From: Syntrophaceae bacterium | GTDB lineage: Bacteria; Desulfobacterota; Syntrophia; Syntrophales; Smithellaceae | Assembly: GCA_016927935.1 (NCBI GenBank) | Contig: JAFGLS010000164.1 | Coordinates: forward strand, 1 to 36,175 | Reading direction: 5' to 3' | DNA: 36,175 bases | In this document: one piece after another, positions 3,732 to 31,426 of the stretch | Numbering within the stretch: the first letter of the stretch is position 1 | Layout: each line of letters opens with the position of its first letter | Program-made: the position numbers and the translations under genes | The notes under the pieces: model-generated | Database searches by the model: none | The model's input: the letters and a program-made list of their open reading frames with translations, nothing else | Told to the model about the DNA's origin: nothing

Positions 3732-5051
3732 ATGAAAAAAATATCAATAAAGGTTTGTTTGCTGGCAGTTATTTGTATTGGGTCATTTATCCTTTTGGGA
3801 CTTCGTAATGATGATAATGTTTTCGCAAAGGATAAAAATTTTTACAAGGATATTAAAACATTCAGTGAAGTTCTGGACATGGTCAGAAAAAACTATGTTG
3901 ATGAGGTTGATACAACAAAATTGATGCAGGGGGCGATTAATGGAATGATCAGATCTCTTGATCCGCACAGTTCGTTTATGACACCTGATTTATATAAAGA
4001 ATTGGAAGTGGAAACACAAGGACATTTCGGGGGGATTGGCATAGAGATAATGATTATTAAAGACGTGTTAACTATAGTTTCGCCGATAGAAGATACTCCT
4101 GCTTTTAATGCCGGATTAAAACCAGGTGATTATATTTTGAGAATTGACGGTAAACCTACAAAGGATATAACAATTATGGAGGCTGTAAAACAACTCCGCG
4201 GCCCTAAAGATACAAAGGTTACTCTTACAATATTAAGAAAAAACATGACTGCGCCTAAAGATATTACATTGACTCGTGCCATAATTCAGATCAAAAGCAT
4301 CAAATATAAAAAAATTGAAGATGATATTGGTTATATTCGCATAGCGGCTTTTCAGGAAAAAACGGCCGATGATTTGCGCAGAGCACTCAAAGAAATGGAT
4401 GAAAAAAATAATCCGATGAAAGGACTGGTTATTGATTTAAGAAATGATCCTGGAGGATTGTTAACGCAAGCGATTGATGTGTCTGATGTATTTCTAAAAT
4501 CAGGTGTTATTGTTTCAACACGGGGAAGAGTTAAAGCAATGGAGACAAAATCAGAGGCTAAAAATGACAATAATGAAATTAATTGTCCCATGATTGTATT
4601 GGTAAACGAGGGTACTGCGAGTGCCGCGGAAATTGTTGCCGGAGCATTGCAGGATAATGACAGAGCTTTAATAGTTGGAGCACAGACATTTGGCAAAGCT
4701 TCGGTACAGACAATCATTCCTCTTGAAGATGGTTCCGCTCTCAAACTGACGACAGCACGTTATTACACGCCGAATGGACGATCAATTCAAGCTGAAGGTA
4801 TTACGCCTGACATTATAGTTCCTTTTGTCAAATCGTCGGAAGATACTGAAAGTATTATGGATAAAGAAGATAACCTCAGAGAAAAAGACCTCCAAGGACA
4901 TATAAAACCCCAAAAAGAGGATGGAACAAAGGTTGATGAAAACAAAGGTAAACAAACTAAAGATTCCTTTGGTTTGAATAATGACAATCAACTGAAAACT
5001 GCTGTTAATATTCTGAAGAGTTGGAATATTATGAAGAAAAAATTGATTTGA
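3732..5051 (+). CDS. ctpA: Carboxy-terminal processing protease (S41 family, CtpA/Prc type)
   Basis: Periplasmic serine protease with a Ser-Lys dyad. From the chosen start (439 residues): signal/anchor helix at about 7-24, PDZ domain at about 98-180, and S41 core at about 195-365. The nucleophile is S297 in NEGTASAAE and the general base is K322 in FGKASVQ. The C-terminal 70 residues are charged and of low complexity. ATG 3732 is preferred over ATG 3708 or 3729 because GAGGG at 3722-3726 is well spaced only for 3732. The gene precedes a divergent polysaccharide deacetylase, a pairing common in deltaproteobacteria and consistent with cell-wall or envelope maintenance. Confidence 0.93.
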   Translation: MKKISIKVCLLAVICIGSFILLGLRNDDNVFAKDKNFYKDIKTFSEVLDMVRKNYVDEVDTTKLMQGAINGMIRSLDPHSSFMTPDLYKELEVETQGHFGGIGIEIMIIKDVLTIVSPIEDTPAFNAGLKPGDYILRIDGKPTKDITIMEAVKQLRGPKDTKVTLTILRKNMTAPKDITLTRAIIQIKSIKYKKIEDDIGYIRIAAFQEKTADDLRRALKEMDEKNNPMKGLVIDLRNDPGGLLTQAIDVSDVFLKSGVIVSTRGRVKAMETKSEAKNDNNEINCPMIVLVNEGTASAAEIVAGALQDNDRALIVGAQTFGKASVQTIIPLEDGSALKLTTARYYTPNGRSIQAEGITPDIIVPFVKSSEDTESIMDKEDNLREKDLQGHIKPQKEDGTKVDENKGKQTKDSFGLNNDNQLKTAVNILKSWNIMKKKLI

Positions 5052-5082
5052 ATTAAAGTTTGGACAAATAATCAATTAAGCC

Positions 5083-5958
5083 ATGAAGTTATTTAAAAAA
5101 CTTTTTACGGCAACAATTATAATTTTAATAATATTATCAGTAGCTGGTATTATTTATGTGTTGCAGTTTCAAGAAGAAAAGCCTGAAATAAAAAGACCTG
5201 AAAAAATAACTAAAAAAACGGTTGCGCGTAAAATCAAAAAGTTCAAGTCTTTGCCATCCAAACCAATTTCCTTGCGGGAAGTAGCCATTATTATTGATGA
5301 CATAGGTTATGACTTAAATGCGGCTAAAGCATTAATGAAAATTGATGCCAATTTGACATTTTCTGTTTTACCTTTTCAAAAATATTCGCGCGAAGCTGCG
5401 AAAATGCTTCATAAAGCGAAAAAAGAAATTCTTTTACACCTGCCTATGGAACCGGTTTCTTATCCGCAGGAAAAGCCGGGAGAAGGGGCTTTATTTACGG
5501 ATATGAATAATGAGGAACTTCTGTTTCAATTAAAAAATGATATTTACGCTGTTCCTTATATTGTCGGAGTTAGTAACCATATGGGTTCAAAATTCATGAA
5601 TGATGAACAAAAGCTTTCATTGGTTTTTAAGGAACTTAAAAAGAGAAATATGTTTTTTGTTGATTCGCGCACATCACCTGATACAAAGGCTTTATCGATT
5701 GCAAAAAAAACAGGTTTAAATATAGCTGAAAGAAAAATATTTATTGATAACAATCGTAATTATAATGAAATTTATGATAACTTGATCAACGTTACCAAAA
5801 GCAATGATGATTCACCGGTAATAATTATAGGTCATCCCTATCCTGAAACTGTTCGAGCGCTCAAGGATGCGGTTGAAGTTATGCGTGCAAAAGGTATATC
5901 AATTGTTCCGGCATCTCGGATAATTAAAGAAGCAAGAAATTCCCAAAAGAAATCTTAA
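5083..5958 (+). CDS. Divergent polysaccharide deacetylase family protein (DUF610/YibQ type)
   Basis: A 291-residue protein with an N-terminal membrane helix (about 5-27), a lysine-rich linker, and a divergent polysaccharide deacetylase domain from about residue 65. Visible motifs are VAIIIDDIGYD (two metal-binding aspartates), the HLPMEP segment, SNHMGSKF, FFVDSRTSP and IIIGHPYP. Proteins of this family are periplasmic and found beside ctpA and envC genes; their substrate is not established. It begins 31 bases after ctpA. The ribosome-binding site is not obvious. The family assignment is firm; its activity is not known. Confidence 0.87.
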   Translation: MKLFKKLFTATIIILIILSVAGIIYVLQFQEEKPEIKRPEKITKKTVARKIKKFKSLPSKPISLREVAIIIDDIGYDLNAAKALMKIDANLTFSVLPFQKYSREAAKMLHKAKKEILLHLPMEPVSYPQEKPGEGALFTDMNNEELLFQLKNDIYAVPYIVGVSNHMGSKFMNDEQKLSLVFKELKKRNMFFVDSRTSPDTKALSIAKKTGLNIAERKIFIDNNRNYNEIYDNLINVTKSNDDSPVIIIGHPYPETVRALKDAVEVMRAKGISIVPASRIIKEARNSQKKS

Positions 5959-6002
5959 TTATTAATAAGTGATAAATATCCAGAACAAGGCAGATAGATA
6001 AT

Positions 6003-7703
6003 ATGAAAAGAAACATCACCTGTTTAATGATTATAATTATTTTAACCTTGGTAAATCTTTCCGGCTGCAGTAGTTTGCAGGTAAATGATGTTTCTTCTTC
6101 AGTTGATAAAGTTCAAACAGGAGCGACTTATCATTATTTTCTGAGTGTTCTTTTGCGGCATGAAGGAAAGCTTGAGCAGGCGATCGATGAATTAAAACAG
6201 GCGTTTGTTATTGATCCTAAATCTACTTATCTTGCTATGGAACTGATTTCTCTTTATGCTCAACAGGGCGATTTTGACAGTGCGATTTCTCAAGGGGAAA
6301 AAACGCTGTTGGAAGATCCAAATAATGTAGAACTTCATTTAATCATGGGAGGTTTGTATCTAAATGGCCACGAATATTCAAAAGCAATAAGTGAACATAA
6401 AAAAGTAATTGAACTTGATCCTAAAAATCTTGTCGCCCATCTCTACTTGGGAATTATTTATGCTGAAGAAAAAAGGTATGGTAAAGCGGAGGAAACTTTC
6501 AGGAAAATACTGAAATTAGATTCTGACAATATTATCGGTATTTATTACTATGGTAAAGTACTGGAAAAGATGAAAAAGTTTGAAGATGCGGAAAAGATGT
6601 TTAAAAGAGCTATGTCTTTAAATCCTTATTTTGAAATGGCTTTGTATGATTTGGCCGCTCTTTACGAAAAGCAAGAGAAACTGGATAAAGCGATTGAAAT
6701 ATATCGCAATTATCTGGCAATTAATCCCTCGCGGCTGAATTTAAGGGTCAGAACAGGTGAACTTTTAATTAAAAAGAAAAAATATAAAGAAGCACAGAAA
6801 GAATTTCAGGAAGTTTTGAAAATTGATCCGGATAATCGGGATATAAAAATAGCGCTGGGATTATTATATTTCGATATGAACAAATTTGACCTGGCGGTGG
6901 CGGAATTTTCTGCAATTCTGCAGAAAAATATTACAGATGACAAGGTTCGTTATTTACTGGCGGCAACTTACGAGCAAAAAAAGGATATCTCACTGGCCAT
7001 AGAAGAATACAGCCGTATTGCGGTCTCCTCTGAGTTGTATGTAAGTTCGCAAATTCGCGCCGCAGTGCTTTTAAAAGATGAAGGTAAAATCACTAAAGCA
7101 ATTGCTTTAATAAGGAAATCTATTAAGAAAAAAAACGATCAGATACCTTTCTATCTTTTTATATCTGCTCTTTATGAAGAAGCAGGTGATAACACTTCCT
7201 CTGAGAATATATTAAAAGAAGGGCTAAAAACAGCTCCACAAAATACAGATCTGTATTATGCTTTGGGTGTGCTTTATGACAAAACAAATCGTTTTAAAGA
7301 AAGCATTAATGTAATGAAAAAAATTTTAGAAATTGATCCCCAAAATGCTGAGACTCTTAATTTTATAGGGTATAGTTACGCTGAGCGGGGAGTGAATCTT
7401 GACGAAGCGGAAAAAATGATTATCAAGGCGTTGGAAATTAAAAAAGAAAATGGTTATTTACTGGATAGTCTGGGCTGGGTTTATTTCAAAAAAAGTGAAT
7501 TGAGCAACGCAGAAAAATATTTGAATGAGGCTTTGAAACTTTTGCCTGAAGAGGTCGAAATAATCGAACATATGGGGGATCTTTACGTAAAACAAAACAA
7601 AATTAAGGCAGCCACCGAAATGTATGAACGTGCATTAAAGATTGATCCTAAAAAAGTTTCTTTGCAAAAAAAGCTCGAAGATTTGATGAAGAATAAACGA
7701 TGA
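6003..7703 (+). CDS. TPR-repeat lipoprotein
   Basis: A 566-residue lipoprotein. The signal peptide ends in a lipobox LSGC (cysteine near residue 22), with serine at +2, which by the E. coli rule favours outer-membrane sorting. From about residue 40 to the end the protein is an almost unbroken row of tetratricopeptide repeats, for example units ending in EIDPKN, KLDSDN and LKIDPDN. This resembles BamD-like or PEP-CTERM/PilW-like scaffold proteins, but no specific function can be read. The ribosome-binding site is AAGG at 5987-5990. Its stop overlaps the next start (ATGA), so the two products are probably translationally coupled and may act together. Confidence 0.9.
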   Translation: MKRNITCLMIIIILTLVNLSGCSSLQVNDVSSSVDKVQTGATYHYFLSVLLRHEGKLEQAIDELKQAFVIDPKSTYLAMELISLYAQQGDFDSAISQGEKTLLEDPNNVELHLIMGGLYLNGHEYSKAISEHKKVIELDPKNLVAHLYLGIIYAEEKRYGKAEETFRKILKLDSDNIIGIYYYGKVLEKMKKFEDAEKMFKRAMSLNPYFEMALYDLAALYEKQEKLDKAIEIYRNYLAINPSRLNLRVRTGELLIKKKKYKEAQKEFQEVLKIDPDNRDIKIALGLLYFDMNKFDLAVAEFSAILQKNITDDKVRYLLAATYEQKKDISLAIEEYSRIAVSSELYVSSQIRAAVLLKDEGKITKAIALIRKSIKKKNDQIPFYLFISALYEEAGDNTSSENILKEGLKTAPQNTDLYYALGVLYDKTNRFKESINVMKKILEIDPQNAETLNFIGYSYAERGVNLDEAEKMIIKALEIKKENGYLLDSLGWVYFKKSELSNAEKYLNEALKLLPEEVEIIEHMGDLYVKQNKIKAATEMYERALKIDPKKVSLQKKLEDLMKNKR

Positions 7704-21723: not shown

Positions 21724-22611
21724 ATGTCGCGAAAAGATAGTCAAGTCAACAACTCAAGAGAAATACCTTCACTAAAAACTCATGATGTCGGCGGCGCACA
21801 ATTGCCTTATCTTTATTATGAAGGGGACACTCCGCAAATTCTTTTTGCTCATGCCACCGGTTTTTTACCATGGCTTTGGCACCCTATAATAGAACATTTA
21901 ACTCCATCCAAAGAGGCATGGGTGCCGTACATCTGCAATTATCGTGATTGTGATCCGGAACATGGAGGTCTTCCCTGGGATGTTATCGCCATGGATATAG
22001 TCAGTTTCTGTAATTCGCAAAATATCAGCAATAATCTGGCTGTAGGACATTCGATGGGCGCTACGGTGCTTACCATTGCTGCTGGTTTGTTTGAAATGCA
22101 ACCTCGCGGCATTATTCTGATTGAACCAATTTTTCTACCGGAGGAATTTTATTCAATGGATATAAAACTCAAGGATCATCCGCTGGCTTCTCAATCGATA
22201 AAAAGAAAAAACAGCTGGAAGGATGAAGACGAGGCTTTGGCATATCTGAAATCAAAATCCCTCTTTGCCGGCTGGGATGAACAGATGCTTCAATTTTATC
22301 TTAAATACGGCATGGAAAAAAAGGCAGGAGGGGAATTAAAGCTTGCCTGCGCCCCGAGAAATGAAGCAGCGCTGTTCATGGGAGGAAAGAGCACCAATCC
22401 CTGGCCTTTACTGAAGAAGTTGGACTGTCCTGTCCTTGTTGTGGAAGGGGAAAAAAGTGCCAACAAGGAATTTATTGACTTGCCCAGGGCAGTATCTTTG
22501 CTAAGTTATGGAAAATACATGTCGGTGTCAGAAACAGGGCATTTAATTCCCATGCAAAAACCTAGAGAAATCGCTAAAATTACAAAGGAATTTTTAGCAG
22601 AAGTATTTTAG
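21724..22611 (+). CDS. Alpha/beta hydrolase
   Basis: A 295-residue cytoplasmic alpha/beta-hydrolase-fold protein. The oxyanion-side motif is HATGF (43-47). The nucleophile is S110 in GHSMGA. The catalytic histidine is in ETGHLIPMQKP near residue 273. The acid is probably the carboxylate in VVEGEKS near 240. The opening line, with HATGFLPWLWHPII, is typical of esterase-like family members of unknown substrate. No clear ribosome-binding site precedes ATG 21724. It lies 75 bases after pdaD, across a weak terminator. Confidence 0.88.
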   Translation: MSRKDSQVNNSREIPSLKTHDVGGAQLPYLYYEGDTPQILFAHATGFLPWLWHPIIEHLTPSKEAWVPYICNYRDCDPEHGGLPWDVIAMDIVSFCNSQNISNNLAVGHSMGATVLTIAAGLFEMQPRGIILIEPIFLPEEFYSMDIKLKDHPLASQSIKRKNSWKDEDEALAYLKSKSLFAGWDEQMLQFYLKYGMEKKAGGELKLACAPRNEAALFMGGKSTNPWPLLKKLDCPVLVVEGEKSANKEFIDLPRAVSLLSYGKYMSVSETGHLIPMQKPREIAKITKEFLAEVF

Positions 22612-23547: not shown

Positions 23548-24792
23548 ATGAACATACCTCTTGTTGAATTTAAAAATGTTACTAAGCGCTTTGGGGAGCA
23601 AACTGTTCTGGAAAATGTGAATTTAGAAATATACGAAGGAGAAGTTACCACAATTATTGGCCTGAGTGGTGCGGGCAAAAGCGTATTGCTCAAACACATT
23701 ATTGGTTTACTCAAACCTGATGAGGGGAAAATCTTTCTTCGTGGAAAACTCATAAATAATATGAATAAGGCCGAATTGGTCGAATCGATGTCAAAAATCA
23801 GTTATATGTTTCAAAGTAACGCACTATTCAGTTCCATGACTGTTTATGACAATATCGCGTTGCCCCTTGTGGAAAAGACGAATATGAAAAAAGCCGAAAT
23901 ACACGAGCGGGTAATGGCCAGAATCGAACAGACAGAATTGACCGAAGCCGCGGATAAATACCCATCGGAGTTATCCGGAGGTATGCAAAAAAGAGCGGCA
24001 CTGGCACGCGCTTTAATCACAGATCCACAGGTGGTGTTATTTGATGAGCCTACCACCGGTCAGGATCCTGTCCGGAAAAACGCGATTCTGAGTATGATTG
24101 CCCAGTATCAAAAGAAATTCAATTTTACGGCAATAATAGTCAGTCATGAGATTCCGGATGTGTATTTCATTTCCAACCGGATTCTCGCACTCTATGATAA
24201 AACAATAGTTTTTCAGGGAACGCCTGAAGAACTGGCGAATTTTAATCATCCCTTTAATGATGAGGTTATCCGAAGTCTCGAAGGGTTGCAGAAAGAATTA
24301 ACCGGTCTTTATTCCAGGCGGCAGTTCAAAATTTTGCATCGTACTCAGCTGCAACATAAAAAGCCGGAAGAAAGATATTGTGTCGCAGTTTTTGATTTGT
24401 CGGATATGGGTTCGATTATTTCTCGCATAGGTTACGACGCGGCACAGGAAAGAATCCATTCAATTGGAATTTACATTGATAAGCATTTTGGAGCTATTGG
24501 AGGTTTTTCTACCCGCCGTAAGGCTGATGAATTTGTCACGGTACTTCCCTTTTCCAATCTTGTTGAGGCAGAGAATATTTTAAAAGAATTTATCGAAGAT
24601 TTCCAGAAAAGTGGAATCAGTGATATAGAGGGTAAAACTAAAAGAGGCGTGCATTTGAAAAAGAGCGTTGACTTTTCCATAAGGGCGGGAATTGCAGAAG
24701 GGAAGCCCGTTGCCGGAATAGATTCAGTTATAAAGTTGGCCAAATCTAATCAAAAGGAAATTGGGCGGCTAAGATGCGCCGTAAAGGAGTGA
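23548..24792 (+). CDS. mlaF: Mla ABC ATPase MlaF with C-terminal degenerate GGDEF-like domain
   Basis: ATPase that powers the MlaE permease. Residues 1-248 are a complete ABC domain: Walker A GLSGAGKS (38-45), signature LSGGM (142-146), Walker B VVLFDEP (162-168), H-loop H200. Residues 250-414 are an extra domain that reads like a diguanylate cyclase: LTGLYSRRQF (251-260) matches the LTGLxNRRxF opening, VFDLSDMGSIISRIGYDAA (281-299) matches the DxDxFKxxND(x)xGHxxGD helix-turn, RKADEFVTVLP (324-334) replaces R-GGDEF-xxxLP, and IRAGIAEG matches the SxGIA strand. Key metal and GGDEF residues are lost, so cyclase activity is unlikely. Most MlaF proteins end near residue 265. The mlaE stop is 7 bases upstream. 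Confidence 0.9.
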   Translation: MNIPLVEFKNVTKRFGEQTVLENVNLEIYEGEVTTIIGLSGAGKSVLLKHIIGLLKPDEGKIFLRGKLINNMNKAELVESMSKISYMFQSNALFSSMTVYDNIALPLVEKTNMKKAEIHERVMARIEQTELTEAADKYPSELSGGMQKRAALARALITDPQVVLFDEPTTGQDPVRKNAILSMIAQYQKKFNFTAIIVSHEIPDVYFISNRILALYDKTIVFQGTPEELANFNHPFNDEVIRSLEGLQKELTGLYSRRQFKILHRTQLQHKKPEERYCVAVFDLSDMGSIISRIGYDAAQERIHSIGIYIDKHFGAIGGFSTRRKADEFVTVLPFSNLVEAENILKEFIEDFQKSGISDIEGKTKRGVHLKKSVDFSIRAGIAEGKPVAGIDSVIKLAKSNQKEIGRLRCAVKE

Positions 24793-25275: not shown

Positions 25276-25872
25276 ATGAAAAAACAATTGGCGGGATTAT
25301 TGACCATACTGGCGGTTTTAATATTTTCTTTTCCTGTTTGTGCAGGCATTCCGCTTGATTCTGTCAAGAAATGCGTAAATGAGGTTATTGATTTATTGGG
25401 TAATCCAAAACTTAAAGCAGAGTCGGCTAAAGAGATTAAGAAAGAAAAGCTCCGTGTGCTTTACAAACAGATGTTCGATGAAATTGAATTTTCCAAACGG
25501 ACACTGACGCGCAACTGGAACATTTTCAGCCCGGCTCAACGAACTGAATTTGTTAATCTCTTCGAGCAAGTACTGGAAAAATCATACGCTGACAAACTAC
25601 TTAGCTACACTAATGAAAAAGTAGAATTCTATAAAGAAGATATGCTGTCGGAAAAACAGGCTGAAATTCGAAGCAAAATTATTACTTCTTCTAAGGAAGT
25701 GCCCATTTTTTACCGGGTGATTTTAAAAGACGGCAAGTGGAAGGTGTATGATGTTGTTGTGGAAAACGTCAGCCTTGTTCAGAACTACCGCACGCAGTTT
25801 AATGATATACTGGCTAATGGTGACCCGGAAAAACTGCTGGAAATTTTGCGCAAGAAGGTAAAGGCGCAATAA
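25276..25872 (+). CDS. mlaC: Mla periplasmic lipid carrier MlaC
   Basis: Soluble periplasmic shuttle that carries phospholipids between MlaD and the outer-membrane MlaA complex (ABC toluene tolerance Ttg2D family). It has 198 residues: signal peptide to about residue 24 (PVCA), then the MlaC fold with YKQMFDEIEFSKRTLTRNWNIFSPAQRTEF and the late PVFYRVILKDGKWKVYDVVVENVS-like strands (here PIFYRVILKDGKWKVYDVVV). The ribosome-binding site is GGGAGG. It starts 23 bases after mlaD. Confidence 0.94.
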   Translation: MKKQLAGLLTILAVLIFSFPVCAGIPLDSVKKCVNEVIDLLGNPKLKAESAKEIKKEKLRVLYKQMFDEIEFSKRTLTRNWNIFSPAQRTEFVNLFEQVLEKSYADKLLSYTNEKVEFYKEDMLSEKQAEIRSKIITSSKEVPIFYRVILKDGKWKVYDVVVENVSLVQNYRTQFNDILANGDPEKLLEILRKKVKAQ

Positions 25873-27884: not shown

Positions 27885-27955
27885 AATTAATATCCATTCA
27901 GCGCAATAATCATTTCCTGCGGCAATGAAAAAATATAAAAAATTGTGTGAGACGG

Positions 27956-28672
27956 ATGAATCAGCAGAAAGAAACCTTTTTCCATGTTCGGGACCTTACT
28001 AAAGTTTACCAGATGGGTGAAGTGGAGGTACACGCGTTGCGCGGCGTGAATATGGAACTCTTTGCCGGCGAGCTGGTGGTTCTGCTGGGTCCATCGGGAA
28101 GCGGTAAATCAACCCTGCTTAATATCATGGGCGGCCTGGATACCGCGACCGACGGGTTTGTTTCTTACCGGGGTCAGGAGTTAACCAAGGCCACGCAAAA
28201 GGAACTGACCGAGTACCGCCGTTTTCATGTCGGCTTTGTTTTTCAATTCTACAATCTGATTTCCAGCCTGACAGCTAGGGAGAATGTTTCGGTCGTTACA
28301 GAGATTGCCCCCAATCCCATGGCGCCGGAAAGGGCTCTGGATTTGGTGGAATTGGGCGACAGGCTCAATCATTTTCCCTCCCAGCTCTCCGGCGGTGAGC
28401 AGCAGCGCGTCGCCATCGCCCGCGCCATTTCCAAAAATCCGGCGGTTCTTTTGTGCGATGAGCCGACCGGAGCTCTTGATTCCAAGACCGGCATCGTCGT
28501 GCTTCAGGCGCTGGAACGCATCAACCGCGAACTGGGAACGGCAACAGCAATCATTACCCATAATGTGGATATTGCCGGAATGGCCGACCGAGTCATTCAT
28601 TTGAGCAACGGCAAAATCGCGGAAGTGACTTTCAATAAAGTTAAAAAATCAGCGAGCGAACTTCAGTGGTGA
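27956..28672 (+). CDS. ABC transporter ATP-binding protein (LolD/MacB type)
   Basis: ATPase of an exporter whose permease and adaptor follow. The protein has 238 residues from ATG 27956 (a GTG at 27947 would add three). Walker [10 protein letters not shown] is near residue 45, the Q-loop is VFQFYNL, the signature [14 protein letters not shown], Walker [13 protein letters not shown], and the H-loop is THNVD. The LTGxLD-type spacing and the QFYNL motif put it in the MacB/LolD/FtsE subfamily (type VII systems). Third-codon positions are visibly richer in GC than in the mla genes before it, which may indicate recent acquisition of this block. Confidence 0.92.
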
Positions 28673-28814
28673 GAAGTGGGATAGAGGGACGCTGTTAACT
28701 TATTAACTTATTCTAACTGGTAGCGACAGTACCCTATTAAAAAGCTGGATTCCCGATCAGGTCGGAAATGACGGAAGGGAAAAAAGGTCTCCCTTTTTTA
28801 AAGGGAGAGATAGA

Positions 28815-28899
28815 GTGATTCAATGAAACTAGCTAAAAACGAGCTTGCGAAGTTTGAATCATATGTTGAATTGTCCCAGGCGCGTAGAGCCGCGGGATG
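28815..28899 (+). repeat. Dispersed hairpin repeat, divergent copy C
   Basis: It shares ATGAAAC (28823-28829), GTTGAAT (28865-28871), a TCCC segment, CGTAG, and the ending GCGGGATG with copies A and B. Its own stem is TGATTCAA (28816-28823) with TTGAATCA (28854-28861), 8 bases, extended by ACT/AGT. Overall similarity to copy B is partial, so membership is less sure than for A and B. Confidence 0.45.
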
Positions 28900-29013
28900 A
28901 AAAACATAAAATCTCCCCTCACTACTCTTTATAGAAGAGGGGAAGAAAAACTGGATTACCCGGTTACCCAGCATTCGCGAGGCAATGAGCCGGGTAATAA
29001 CATCTACATAAAT

Positions 29014-29041
29014 TTTGAACTTTGAACATAGAACGTTGAAC
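29014..29041. repeat. Four tandem heptamers before the permease gene
   Basis: TTTGAAC, TTTGAAC, ATAGAAC, GTTGAAC in direct tandem, the last ending at 29041, 21 bases before the permease start. Simple repeats of this size can change length by slippage. Whether they affect expression is unknown. Confidence 0.6.
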
Positions 29042-29062
29042 TAGTGAGCGAAAGCGAACGTT

Positions 29063-31426
29063 ATGAAGACGCTGAACCGAAAACTCTGGAGGGAAATCTG
29101 GCTGATGAAAGGTCAGGTTTTCGCCATTACGCTGGTGGTAATCAGCGGCGTGGCCACCTTCATCATGTTTATCAGCACCATGCATTCTCTTGATTTTATC
29201 CGCAACAATTTTTACCGTGAGTACAATTTTGCCGATGTTTTTGTTAATTTGAAACGGGCACCGGAAAGCCTCAAGTATAAACTGAAAAATATCAAAGGCG
29301 TCAAACAGCTGGAAACACGGGTGAGTGCTCAGGCCAAGCTAGATATCAAGGGATTTAAGGAATCGGTTACAGCTAAGATAACTTCCGTTCCCGATGTTGG
29401 TGAGCCTCTGGTCAACCGCCTTTACATCAGAGTCGGCAGGCTTCCTGATCCGGAGAGGGACAATGAAGTTGTCATTAACGAAACATTCGCCCAGGCACAT
29501 GGCTTGAAACTTGGCGATCAGTTTGCTGCGGTTATCAACGGGAAATGGAAGAAACTGACGATTACCGGCATCGTTCTTTCTCCGGAATTCATTTTGTTGA
29601 TGAAGATGGGAGCGATGACACCCGACTTTAAGCGCTACGGTGCTTTATGGATGAGCCGCAAGGCCATCAGCAAGGCCTATGACATGGAAGGCGCTTTCAA
29701 TGATGTTGTCTTGACACTATATCCGGGAGCTCAATTAAGCGATATTGTGCGGGACTTGGATAAAATTCTAGGAAGATATGGCGGCTTCGGCGCCTATGGT
29801 CGTAAGGACCAGATATCCCACCGATTGCTTAGCGAAGAATTCAAGCAACTCAAAACGAGTTCCAGAATATATCCCTCGATTTTTGTATGTGTCGCCGCCT
29901 TTTTGCTCAATATCGTCATGAGTAGAACAATCAGTACCCAGCGCGAACAAATCGGCACGCTCAAAGCGTTTGGTTACAGCAATACGGATGTGGCTATCCA
30001 TTACGCGAAGATGGTTATTCTGATTATTTCCGCCGGGGTTCTGCTGGGAATCGCCGTAGGCATCTGGCTCGGAAAATTTTTGGGCGGGATTTACATGGAA
30101 ACCTACCGGTTCCCTTTTTTTATTTATAAATTGCATCCGGAAGTTATTTTAGCGGTCGTCTTGATAGGTGCCGCCTCGGCTATCGGTGGGACCATGCATT
30201 CGCTTTGGCGGGCCGCCAAACAAACTCCCGCGGAAGCGATGAGGCCGGAGGCTCCGGAAAAATATCGTGTTTCGCTGATTGAAAAAACAGGCATCGGCCG
30301 GCTGCTTTCACAGCCTTCCCGCATTATCGTCCGTAACGTCGAAAGAAAGCCAATCAAGACATTTCTGGCGGTCATCGGCATAGCAACTGCCTGTGCGACA
30401 ATGATTTGCAGCGGATTTTTCAAGGACTCCGTTGATTTTATGGTGCACATTCAGTTCGTGCTGTCGCAGAAAGGTGACATGACGGTAACTTTCGTTGAAC
30501 CGACTTCCTATAAGGCTCTATACGAGTTCAAAAGGATGGAAGGAATCAGCGATGGAGAGGCATTTCGCAGTGTTCCGGTAAAGTTTAAGTACGGCCACCG
30601 CAGTTATAAAACTACCGTCAATGGAATAGAAAAAGACGGCCATCTGAGCGTTTTATTGGACAAAAATCTTCAAAGCATTTCTTTGCCTCAGTCGGGTATT
30701 TTGCTGACGGATTATCTGGGGGAGATTCTTAGAGTCAAGCCGGGAGATATGCTGACCGTGGAAACGCTGGAAGGTTCCAAGTCCATCCGCCAGGTTCCAG
30801 TTGTCGCTTTGGCTAGACAATATCTGGGCGTAATGGGTTATATGAGTCTCAATGCACTCAACCGCCTGATGAATGAAGGAAATGCCATATCAGGCGCTTA
30901 TCTGGTCACGGACGAAAAATACAGGGAGAAACTCTTTCGGTCGTTCGTGGAAATGCCGCGGGTTTCCGATATCATTGTCCGTAAGAATGAAATTTACAAT
31001 ATGTATGAAATTATGGCCAAGGCGATGCTTTTCTTTACTTTCATTGCCACGATTATGGCGTGTTCCATCGCTTTCGGCGTTGTATATAACAGCGCCAGGA
31101 TTTCTTTATCGGAACGAAGCCGGGAGCTTTCCTCTCTGCGTGTTTTGGGATATACTCAAGGCGAGATTGCCTATATTCTTCTGGGAGAACTTGGCTTCAT
31201 AACTCTTGTTGCCATTCCCTTGGGATTTATTATAGGATATTGGATATGTGCATATGTAGCGTATGCGCTGACGTCCGATCTTTATCGCGTGCCGCTGGTT
31301 ATAGAGATGAACACTTACGCTCAGGCGGCGGCTGTGGTGCTTGTTTCGGCTTTTATATCGGGTTTGATAGTGCGCCGCAAACTCAATAATCTTGATCTGG
31401 TGGCGGTGTTGAAGACAAGAGAGTGA
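29063..31426 (+). CDS. ABC transporter permease, FtsX/MacB type
   Basis: A 787-residue inner-membrane permease with two FtsX domains: an N-terminal helix at about 17-38, an extracytoplasmic domain (about 50-260), a first FtsX helix block at about 265-390 (SSRIYPSIFVCVAAFLL ... GIAVGIWLGKFL), a further helix at about 430-450, a second extracytoplasmic domain, and a final block at about 655-775 (AMLFFTFIATIMACSIAFGV, then GELGFITLVAIPLGFIIGYW). The motifs QREQIGTLKAFGYS and RELSSLRVLGYT are the cytoplasmic coupling loops. Together with the ATPase and adaptor it would make a tripartite exporter; the substrate is unknown. Confidence 0.92.
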   Translation: MKTLNRKLWREIWLMKGQVFAITLVVISGVATFIMFISTMHSLDFIRNNFYREYNFADVFVNLKRAPESLKYKLKNIKGVKQLETRVSAQAKLDIKGFKESVTAKITSVPDVGEPLVNRLYIRVGRLPDPERDNEVVINETFAQAHGLKLGDQFAAVINGKWKKLTITGIVLSPEFILLMKMGAMTPDFKRYGALWMSRKAISKAYDMEGAFNDVVLTLYPGAQLSDIVRDLDKILGRYGGFGAYGRKDQISHRLLSEEFKQLKTSSRIYPSIFVCVAAFLLNIVMSRTISTQREQIGTLKAFGYSNTDVAIHYAKMVILIISAGVLLGIAVGIWLGKFLGGIYMETYRFPFFIYKLHPEVILAVVLIGAASAIGGTMHSLWRAAKQTPAEAMRPEAPEKYRVSLIEKTGIGRLLSQPSRIIVRNVERKPIKTFLAVIGIATACATMICSGFFKDSVDFMVHIQFVLSQKGDMTVTFVEPTSYKALYEFKRMEGISDGEAFRSVPVKFKYGHRSYKTTVNGIEKDGHLSVLLDKNLQSISLPQSGILLTDYLGEILRVKPGDMLTVETLEGSKSIRQVPVVALARQYLGVMGYMSLNALNRLMNEGNAISGAYLVTDEKYREKLFRSFVEMPRVSDIIVRKNEIYNMYEIMAKAMLFFTFIATIMACSIAFGVVYNSARISLSERSRELSSLRVLGYTQGEIAYILLGELGFITLVAIPLGFIIGYWICAYVAYALTSDLYRVPLVIEMNTYAQAAAVVLVSAFISGLIVRRKLNNLDLVAVLKTRE

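Follow-up and report, generated by a model that had tools for sequence, protein, structure and literature searches.

A predicted degenerate GGDEF domain at the C-terminus of the Mla ATPase MlaF in Desulfobacterota

The window, meaning the whole 36,175-nucleotide stretch of DNA analysed here, contains a complete Mla operon in which Pfam profiles recognise mlaE, mlaF, mlaD, mlaC and mlaA, and whose mlaF gene runs on, in one intact reading frame, into a second domain that we predict to be a degenerate GGDEF domain (Table 1). The alpha/beta hydrolase gene found directly upstream of mlaE occupies the same place in 14 of the best 80 of the 98 named loci, mostly in Smithella-like genomes. On the 3' side of the mla operon, positions 27947-31426 putatively encode, as read from the sequence, a MacB/LolD-like ATPase and a large FtsX-type permease.

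Table 1. Coordinates of the Mla operon, the upstream hydrolase gene and the parts of the MlaF fusion in the window.
Feature	Coordinates	Strand	Evidence or remark
alpha/beta hydrolase, directly upstream of mlaE	21724..22611	+	PF12697, 40.7 bits
mlaE permease, 281 aa	22695..23540	+	PF02405, 255.5 bits; no STAS domain fused
mlaF::pseudo-GGDEF fusion, 414 aa	23548..24792	+	PF00005, 121 bits, and PF00990, 26.7 bits; ORF intact
MlaF ABC ATPase part, residues 1-244	23548..24279	+	all ATPase motifs present
predicted degenerate GGDEF-like C-terminal domain, residues 245-414	24280..24789	+	PF00990, 28.7 bits; hhalign 98.15% vs true GGDEF
GAIGGFSTR, residues 315-323, where the I-site was lost	24490..24516	+	alignment to true GGDEF
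KADEF, residues 325-329, degenerate GGDEF loop	24520..24534	+	alignment to true GGDEF
mlaD, short form, 151 aa	24797..25252	+	PF02470, 69.6 bits
mlaC	25276..25872	+	PF05494, 151 bits
mlaA	26226..27146	+	PF04333, 234.5 bits

The ATPase part of the fusion has none of its motifs missing, with Walker A at residues 38-45, the signature LSGGMQKR at 142-149, which carries a methionine (SGGM), Walker B at 162-169 and the H-loop histidine at His200, and the key ATPase residues are invariant or near-invariant in an alignment of 49 proteins. Its best NCBIfam match is MlaF (NF008809) at 206 bits, under the 441-bit equivalog cut-off. Among the proteins in which the pattern matched, the number of residues after the H-loop falls into two peaks, at 53-74 in plain MlaF (70 in E. 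coli) versus 207-223 in tailed MlaF. The tail starts directly after the last ATPase part, at the same point of the chain as the C-terminal "handshake" extension of E. coli MlaF.

A first-pass annotation had read this tail as a GGDEF-like domain from its motifs, and the landmarks on which it relied are borne out, namely LTGLYSRRQF (residues 251-260), FDLSD (282-286), RRKADEF (323-329) and IRAGIAEG (378-385). Profile searches uphold the assignment: both PF00990 scores, for the whole protein (26.7 bits) and for residues 245-414 alone (28.7 bits), exceed the curated cut-off of 23.8 bits, with the NCBIfam GGDEF model TIGR00254 giving 20.5 bits, below its cut-off of 37.4. Its own genome has 16 GGDEF matches, of which the tail scores lowest, the other 15 lying at 133-178 bits. 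When a profile of 50 tails was compared by hhalign with the 15 true GGDEF domains of the own genome, the probability was 98.15 (E 6e-14), against 0.13 for a STAS profile used as negative control, so that the resemblance to GGDEF goes beyond chance. Searched against PDB sequences, the same 50-tail profile retrieved 13 distinct diguanylate cyclase sequences at E <=0.01, the best at 1.9e-7. Distant tails of the same MlaF family score 75 and 85 bits to PF00990 with near-complete coverage of the domain, and profile comparison links them to the window tails with an hhalign probability of 99.81. Of eight other tailed proteins scanned, seven pass the PF00990 cut-off, the eighth (L143) reaching only 18.0 bits. 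A chance match or an annotation artefact is ruled out by the genome-wide GGDEF scores and the hhalign comparisons. On these profile data, residues 245-414 are assigned to a degenerate GGDEF domain, which would be expected to adopt the nucleotidyl-cyclase fold.

The degeneration reaches the residues on which catalysis depends in true GGDEF domains. The GG[DE]EF loop is present in 15 of 15 true domains of the own genome and in none of 80 tails (50 from the window clade, 20 divergent and 10 other), the counts for the motif DxD..K..ND are identical, and neither motif occurs in a further 30 tails, giving 0/110 in a sample that includes repeats, at least three genes being drawn twice among the 80 and at least four more being repeated by the further 30. 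The earlier observation that the GGDEF loop (KADEF in the window tail) and the catalytic and substrate motif are lost holds for all of these tails. Asp occupies the first metal position in five of the 50 aligned window-clade tails; in the same alignment, loop position three is Asn in 39 and the loop glutamate (Glu328) is kept in 46, and the N-D pair for the substrate and both loop glycines are lost.

The RxxD inhibitory site (I-site), which the first-pass annotation had not seen in the window tail, is indeed gone from the whole window clade, where Arg occupies the first position in 0/50 tails and Asp the last in 0/50. At the former site, this clade conserves the motif GA[IV]GGFS[TS]R, with G318, G319, S321 and R323 identical in 50/50. 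Tails of a second, basal type keep the RxxD Arg in 15 of 19 and its Asp in all 19, the Arg being the only real test since the 19 were picked by a pattern that already demanded the Asp. In most of them the loop reads G[ML]NKI, and Thr replaces the metal Asp in 16/19. The retention of the Arg is suggestive and not decisive, because true cyclases keep the site too (14 of the 15 true GGDEF domains of the own genome).

Among the best 80 of the 98 named loci, MlaF and tail share one frame in 79, and the exception is L058, reported as two frames; in the L023 reading of this contig, the junction contains undetermined bases. Another mla gene lies in the fetched stretch at 78 of these 80 loci, and mlaC at 66. 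For the tailed MlaF genes of L093 (701-2014; sampled again as L211) and L095 (6233-7528), the fetched stretch showed no further mla gene. In L098 the ATPase part is interrupted and lies in two frames, and the contig start truncates L099 and L102. One of the 80 loci (L106) is titled candidate division WOR-3 and may come from a mislabelled MAG.

In close relatives, 51 of 60 genomes have any match and 43 of 60 have a row at E <=2.7e-30, the remaining matches being weak and of the size obtained from ordinary GGDEF proteins. In a phylum sample of 247 genomes, the fusion occurs in at least 26, all with mlaC (at least 26 of 132), and none was found in the 115 genomes without mlaC (Fisher p 4e-8, relatedness ignored). 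These fusions comprise 20 strong matches, two weaker ones confirmed by their sequence (G094 and G262) and four recovered with another profile or from inspection of the locus (G088, G162, G216 and G236). Within the order containing G094, 84 of 194 genomes match at E <=1e-30, and 83 have a row spanning the MlaF-GGDEF junction, the exception being G495; the order is probably Desulfobacterales, given that the G571 tail (L222) matches the tail of L100, a MAG bearing that title. The fusion is a widespread subfamily across Syntrophales and Desulfobacterales, nearly always beside other mla genes. A recent or isolated fusion in a single MAG is ruled out by its occurrence in the genomes of many relatives. 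In targeted searches of open-licence papers, no description of an MlaF-pseudo-GGDEF fusion was found.

Several genomes hold more than one Mla system. Genome G191 (L149) has two MlaF-pseudo-GGDEF genes in one mla cluster (477-1829 and 4731-6062), a window-type and a basal-type gene, with the second located after mlaA. Two or three such paralogues are present in several Desulfobacterales genomes, for instance G518, G553, G577 and G598, and a tailed and a plain Mla operon share the same genome in G103, G196 and G290. Among the 17 close relatives without a strong tail match, 15 were read (L117-L132), and 13 of these carry an MlaE-MlaF-MlaD operon of another kind, which combines a plain MlaF with a long MlaD (frames of 473-622 aa), MlaC not being found nearby. 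Of the two others, G043 is cut before MlaD and G046 has a tailless operon with MlaC. Genome G047 has both the long-MlaD and the tailed kinds.

The trees point to a single origin. In a tree of MlaE, a protein that does not carry the tail, 39 tailed and 34 plain rows require one change, with support of 100/100; this tree omits seven loci in which MlaE was not found as well as near-duplicate loci, its bootstrap is not fully settled, and its tail labels were assigned by hand and agree with tail-only profiles. In a tree of the ATPase part of MlaF, built from hand-chosen rows with the tail removed and rooted on 14 plain MlaF proteins, the 48 tailed rows fall into a single clade (100/100). At its base stand 15 rows with RxxD and four related rows without its Arg, some of these basal branches being weak (91/77, 91/68 and 81/17), and the 29 rows without the I-site, the window included, make up one nested clade (100/97). 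Given one clade of tailed rows, RxxD at its base and the I-site-less clade nested within it, the simplest reading of the sequences would be a single fusion, an I-site present in the ancestor and its single loss toward the window lineage.

After filtering on dS, 66 of 1176 pairs remained; in these the tail has a median dN/dS of 0.24 and a largest value of 0.60, and the ATPase part a median of 0.079. By these estimates, purifying selection acts on the tail, though less strongly than on the ATPase. The roughly threefold higher ratio of the tail would suit a loosely constrained accessory domain no less than a switch.

The first-pass annotation had noted the absence of mlaB from the operon, and no STAS gene is seen there. 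In the own genome (about 91% complete), the one PF13466 match is a STAS-MlaE fusion that belongs to a second MCE operon, and PF01740 adds one more match, a 257-aa frame on another contig that looks like an anti-sigma-antagonist type protein; neither lies near the window mla operon. The second MCE operon (L111, contig C12, 2878-6539) encodes, besides the STAS-MlaE fusion, a plain MlaF of 264 aa, a long MlaD of 310 aa and a putative lipoprotein of 225 aa, such that STAS is built into MlaE in that system, whereas the pseudo-GGDEF domain sits on MlaF in the window system.

Across 31 genomes, neither the 13 tailless nor the 18 tailed Mla operons had a STAS_2 match on the same contig at up to 20 kb from the listed mlaC; several contigs end sooner, and a STAS gene may lie past their ends. 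The nearest match on the same contig is 28 kb away for the tailless operons (G280) and about 21 kb away for the tailed ones (G260). The search used PF13466, with which E. coli matched at the genome level, in place of a custom STAS profile that had missed E. coli MlaB; its reach is limited, MlaB proteins being very divergent. MlaB is sparse in diderms according to published phylogenomics (PMC10665443). The survey thus gives no support to the proposed co-occurrence of the tail with the loss of mlaB, since the tailless operons have no nearby STAS_2 either; the absence of mlaB looks like a background state that does not explain the tail. On the same counts, a tail acting as a strict MlaB substitute was rejected. 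Moreover, because MlaF of the same phylum occurs with neither a tail nor a nearby STAS gene, an Mla system as such can do without the tail.

In E. coli, as described in PMC7367683, the C-terminal extension of MlaF wraps the neighbouring MlaF and touches MlaB, and both MlaB and the extension are required for assembly. An MlaF truncated to remove the extension does not function, and replacing the extension by a GCN4 dimeriser gives a substantial, not full, rescue, with the roles of MlaB and the extension still debated; in other ABC ATPases, C-terminal domains are thought to control the association of both ATPases (PMC7367683). Because the tail begins where that extension does, it may be a domain for dimerisation or regulation. 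The explanation that we favour, with moderate confidence, is that the tail of the window MlaF is a dead GGDEF domain, acquired once in a Desulfobacterota Mla lineage, that serves as such a domain.

Under this explanation, the tail would derive from a GGDEF domain of the diguanylate-cyclase type, gained once and held by purifying selection. Its position in the complex, its dimerisation, its regulation and any ligand we infer as follows. Since there are two MlaF subunits, each transporter would carry two tails, one on each, which would act as cytoplasmic C-terminal regulatory domains in the manner of MetN or ModC, and which may contact each other or the neighbouring subunit, thereby favouring or restraining ATPase dimerisation. 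In basal members, the retained RxxD would let c-di-GMP lock or release the tail contact; in the window lineage, where RxxD is gone, the GA[IV]GGFS[TS]R surface would form a fixed contact or answer another partner. The c-di-GMP step takes its cue from the ancestral RxxD and cannot extend to the present-day window protein: the ancestral I-site would favour c-di-GMP in relatives, not in the window protein, and the ancestral fusion was perhaps c-di-GMP-responsive and rewired in the window lineage. Against the favoured explanation we count that isolated GGDEF domains need not dimerise, as well as the tailless MlaF proteins of the phylum, the higher dN/dS of the tail, the two loci without another mla gene (L093 and L095) and the one with a split ATPase (L098). 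As to the function put forward in the first-pass annotation, the looser idea that the tail supports or tunes the ATPase stands as the best reading, and the specific link to a lost MlaB finds no support in the 13 tailless operons.

Other explanations differ in what the tail would do. It may replace MlaB by folding back on the helical subdomain of MlaF and stabilising the ATPase in the way of the E. coli STAS protein; in E. coli, MlaB and the MlaF extension touch and are both needed for assembly (PMC7367683). The lack of any STAS match near tailed operons agrees with this, as does the second MCE system of the own genome, in which a STAS-fused MlaE goes with a plain MlaF; but the relatives with tailless operons show no nearby STAS partner that could be replaced, and the hhalign comparison with STAS argues against a STAS-like tail, which together make the replacement unlikely. 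The relic active site might instead bind GTP or another nucleotide and serve as an energy or nucleotide sensor, a role in line with a parent fold that binds nucleotides, with the existence of degenerate GGDEF domains serving as allosteric GTP-binding sites, and with the retention of Glu328 in most tails. With the metal Asp so rarely kept and with the N-D pair and both loop glycines lost, we give the sensor only a small chance.

A window tail that itself binds c-di-GMP and switches the protein would find its ligand in the cell, since the 15 canonical GGDEF domains imply that c-di-GMP is probably made in the own genome, and the RxxD Arg of most basal-type tails is consistent with such binding; the complete loss of the I-site Arg and Asp from the window clade renders it improbable. 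The loss of the catalytic motifs and the faster evolution of the tail relative to the ATPase part would also suit a functionless relic carried along on a needed gene. Against a relic stand a dN/dS well under 1 in both median and maximum, a frame shared with MlaF at every one of the best 80 loci save the one with undetermined bases, and the new invariant residues of the tail, and we hold it to be quite improbable. Lastly, an active diguanylate cyclase coupled to the transporter has in its favour the PF00990 homology only, and is barely credible: a normal diguanylate cyclase is excluded because none of the 110 tails has the GG[DE]EF loop or the metal and substrate motif.

Compared with known systems, the fusion shares with E. 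coli MlaFEDB the ATPase family, the partners MlaE, MlaD and MlaC and the position of an extra C-terminal segment. They differ in that E. coli MlaF carries about 25 extra residues with no compact fold, together with a separate STAS protein, whereas the window MlaF carries a GGDEF-like domain of about 165 residues with no MlaB seen. Veillonella parvula MlaEFD is likewise an Mla ATPase system without MlaB, unlike the window in its short MlaF tail, its long MlaD and its lack of MlaC and MlaA (PMC10665443). The importers MetNI, ModBC and MalFGK also have an ATPase C-terminal domain able to control ATPase pairing, although the domains described for them in PMC7367683 are ferredoxin-like and TOBE domains and not GGDEF. 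A GGDEF-like region is also part of an ammonium transporter (PDB 8qj3 and 8qpf), whose sequences match the tail of L153 weakly (E ~3e-4); here, too, a GGDEF-like sequence and a transporter share one chain, but the transporter is not an ABC ATPase. Targeted literature searches found no paper on this ammonium transporter.

In OpuA-type ATPases, C-terminal CBS domains bind c-di-AMP, which places a domain of the second-messenger type on the C-terminus of an ABC ATPase, as in the tailed MlaF, but with another domain, another transporter family and a known ligand. PelD is a degenerate-GGDEF receptor of c-di-GMP with a dead active site and a retained RxxD, a combination that resembles most basal MlaF tails; unlike these, it is not known to be fused to a transporter ATPase, and the window tail, for its part, has no RxxD.

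The fusion suggests that some bacteria regulate or assemble the Mla transporter through a borrowed signalling domain. A large natural subfamily with a signalling-type domain at that place makes it testable whether ATPase dimerisation is set by the C-terminal domain and whether c-di-GMP gates the transporter. If true, second-messenger signalling would be linked directly to the lipid asymmetry of the outer membrane in sulfate reducers and syntrophs.
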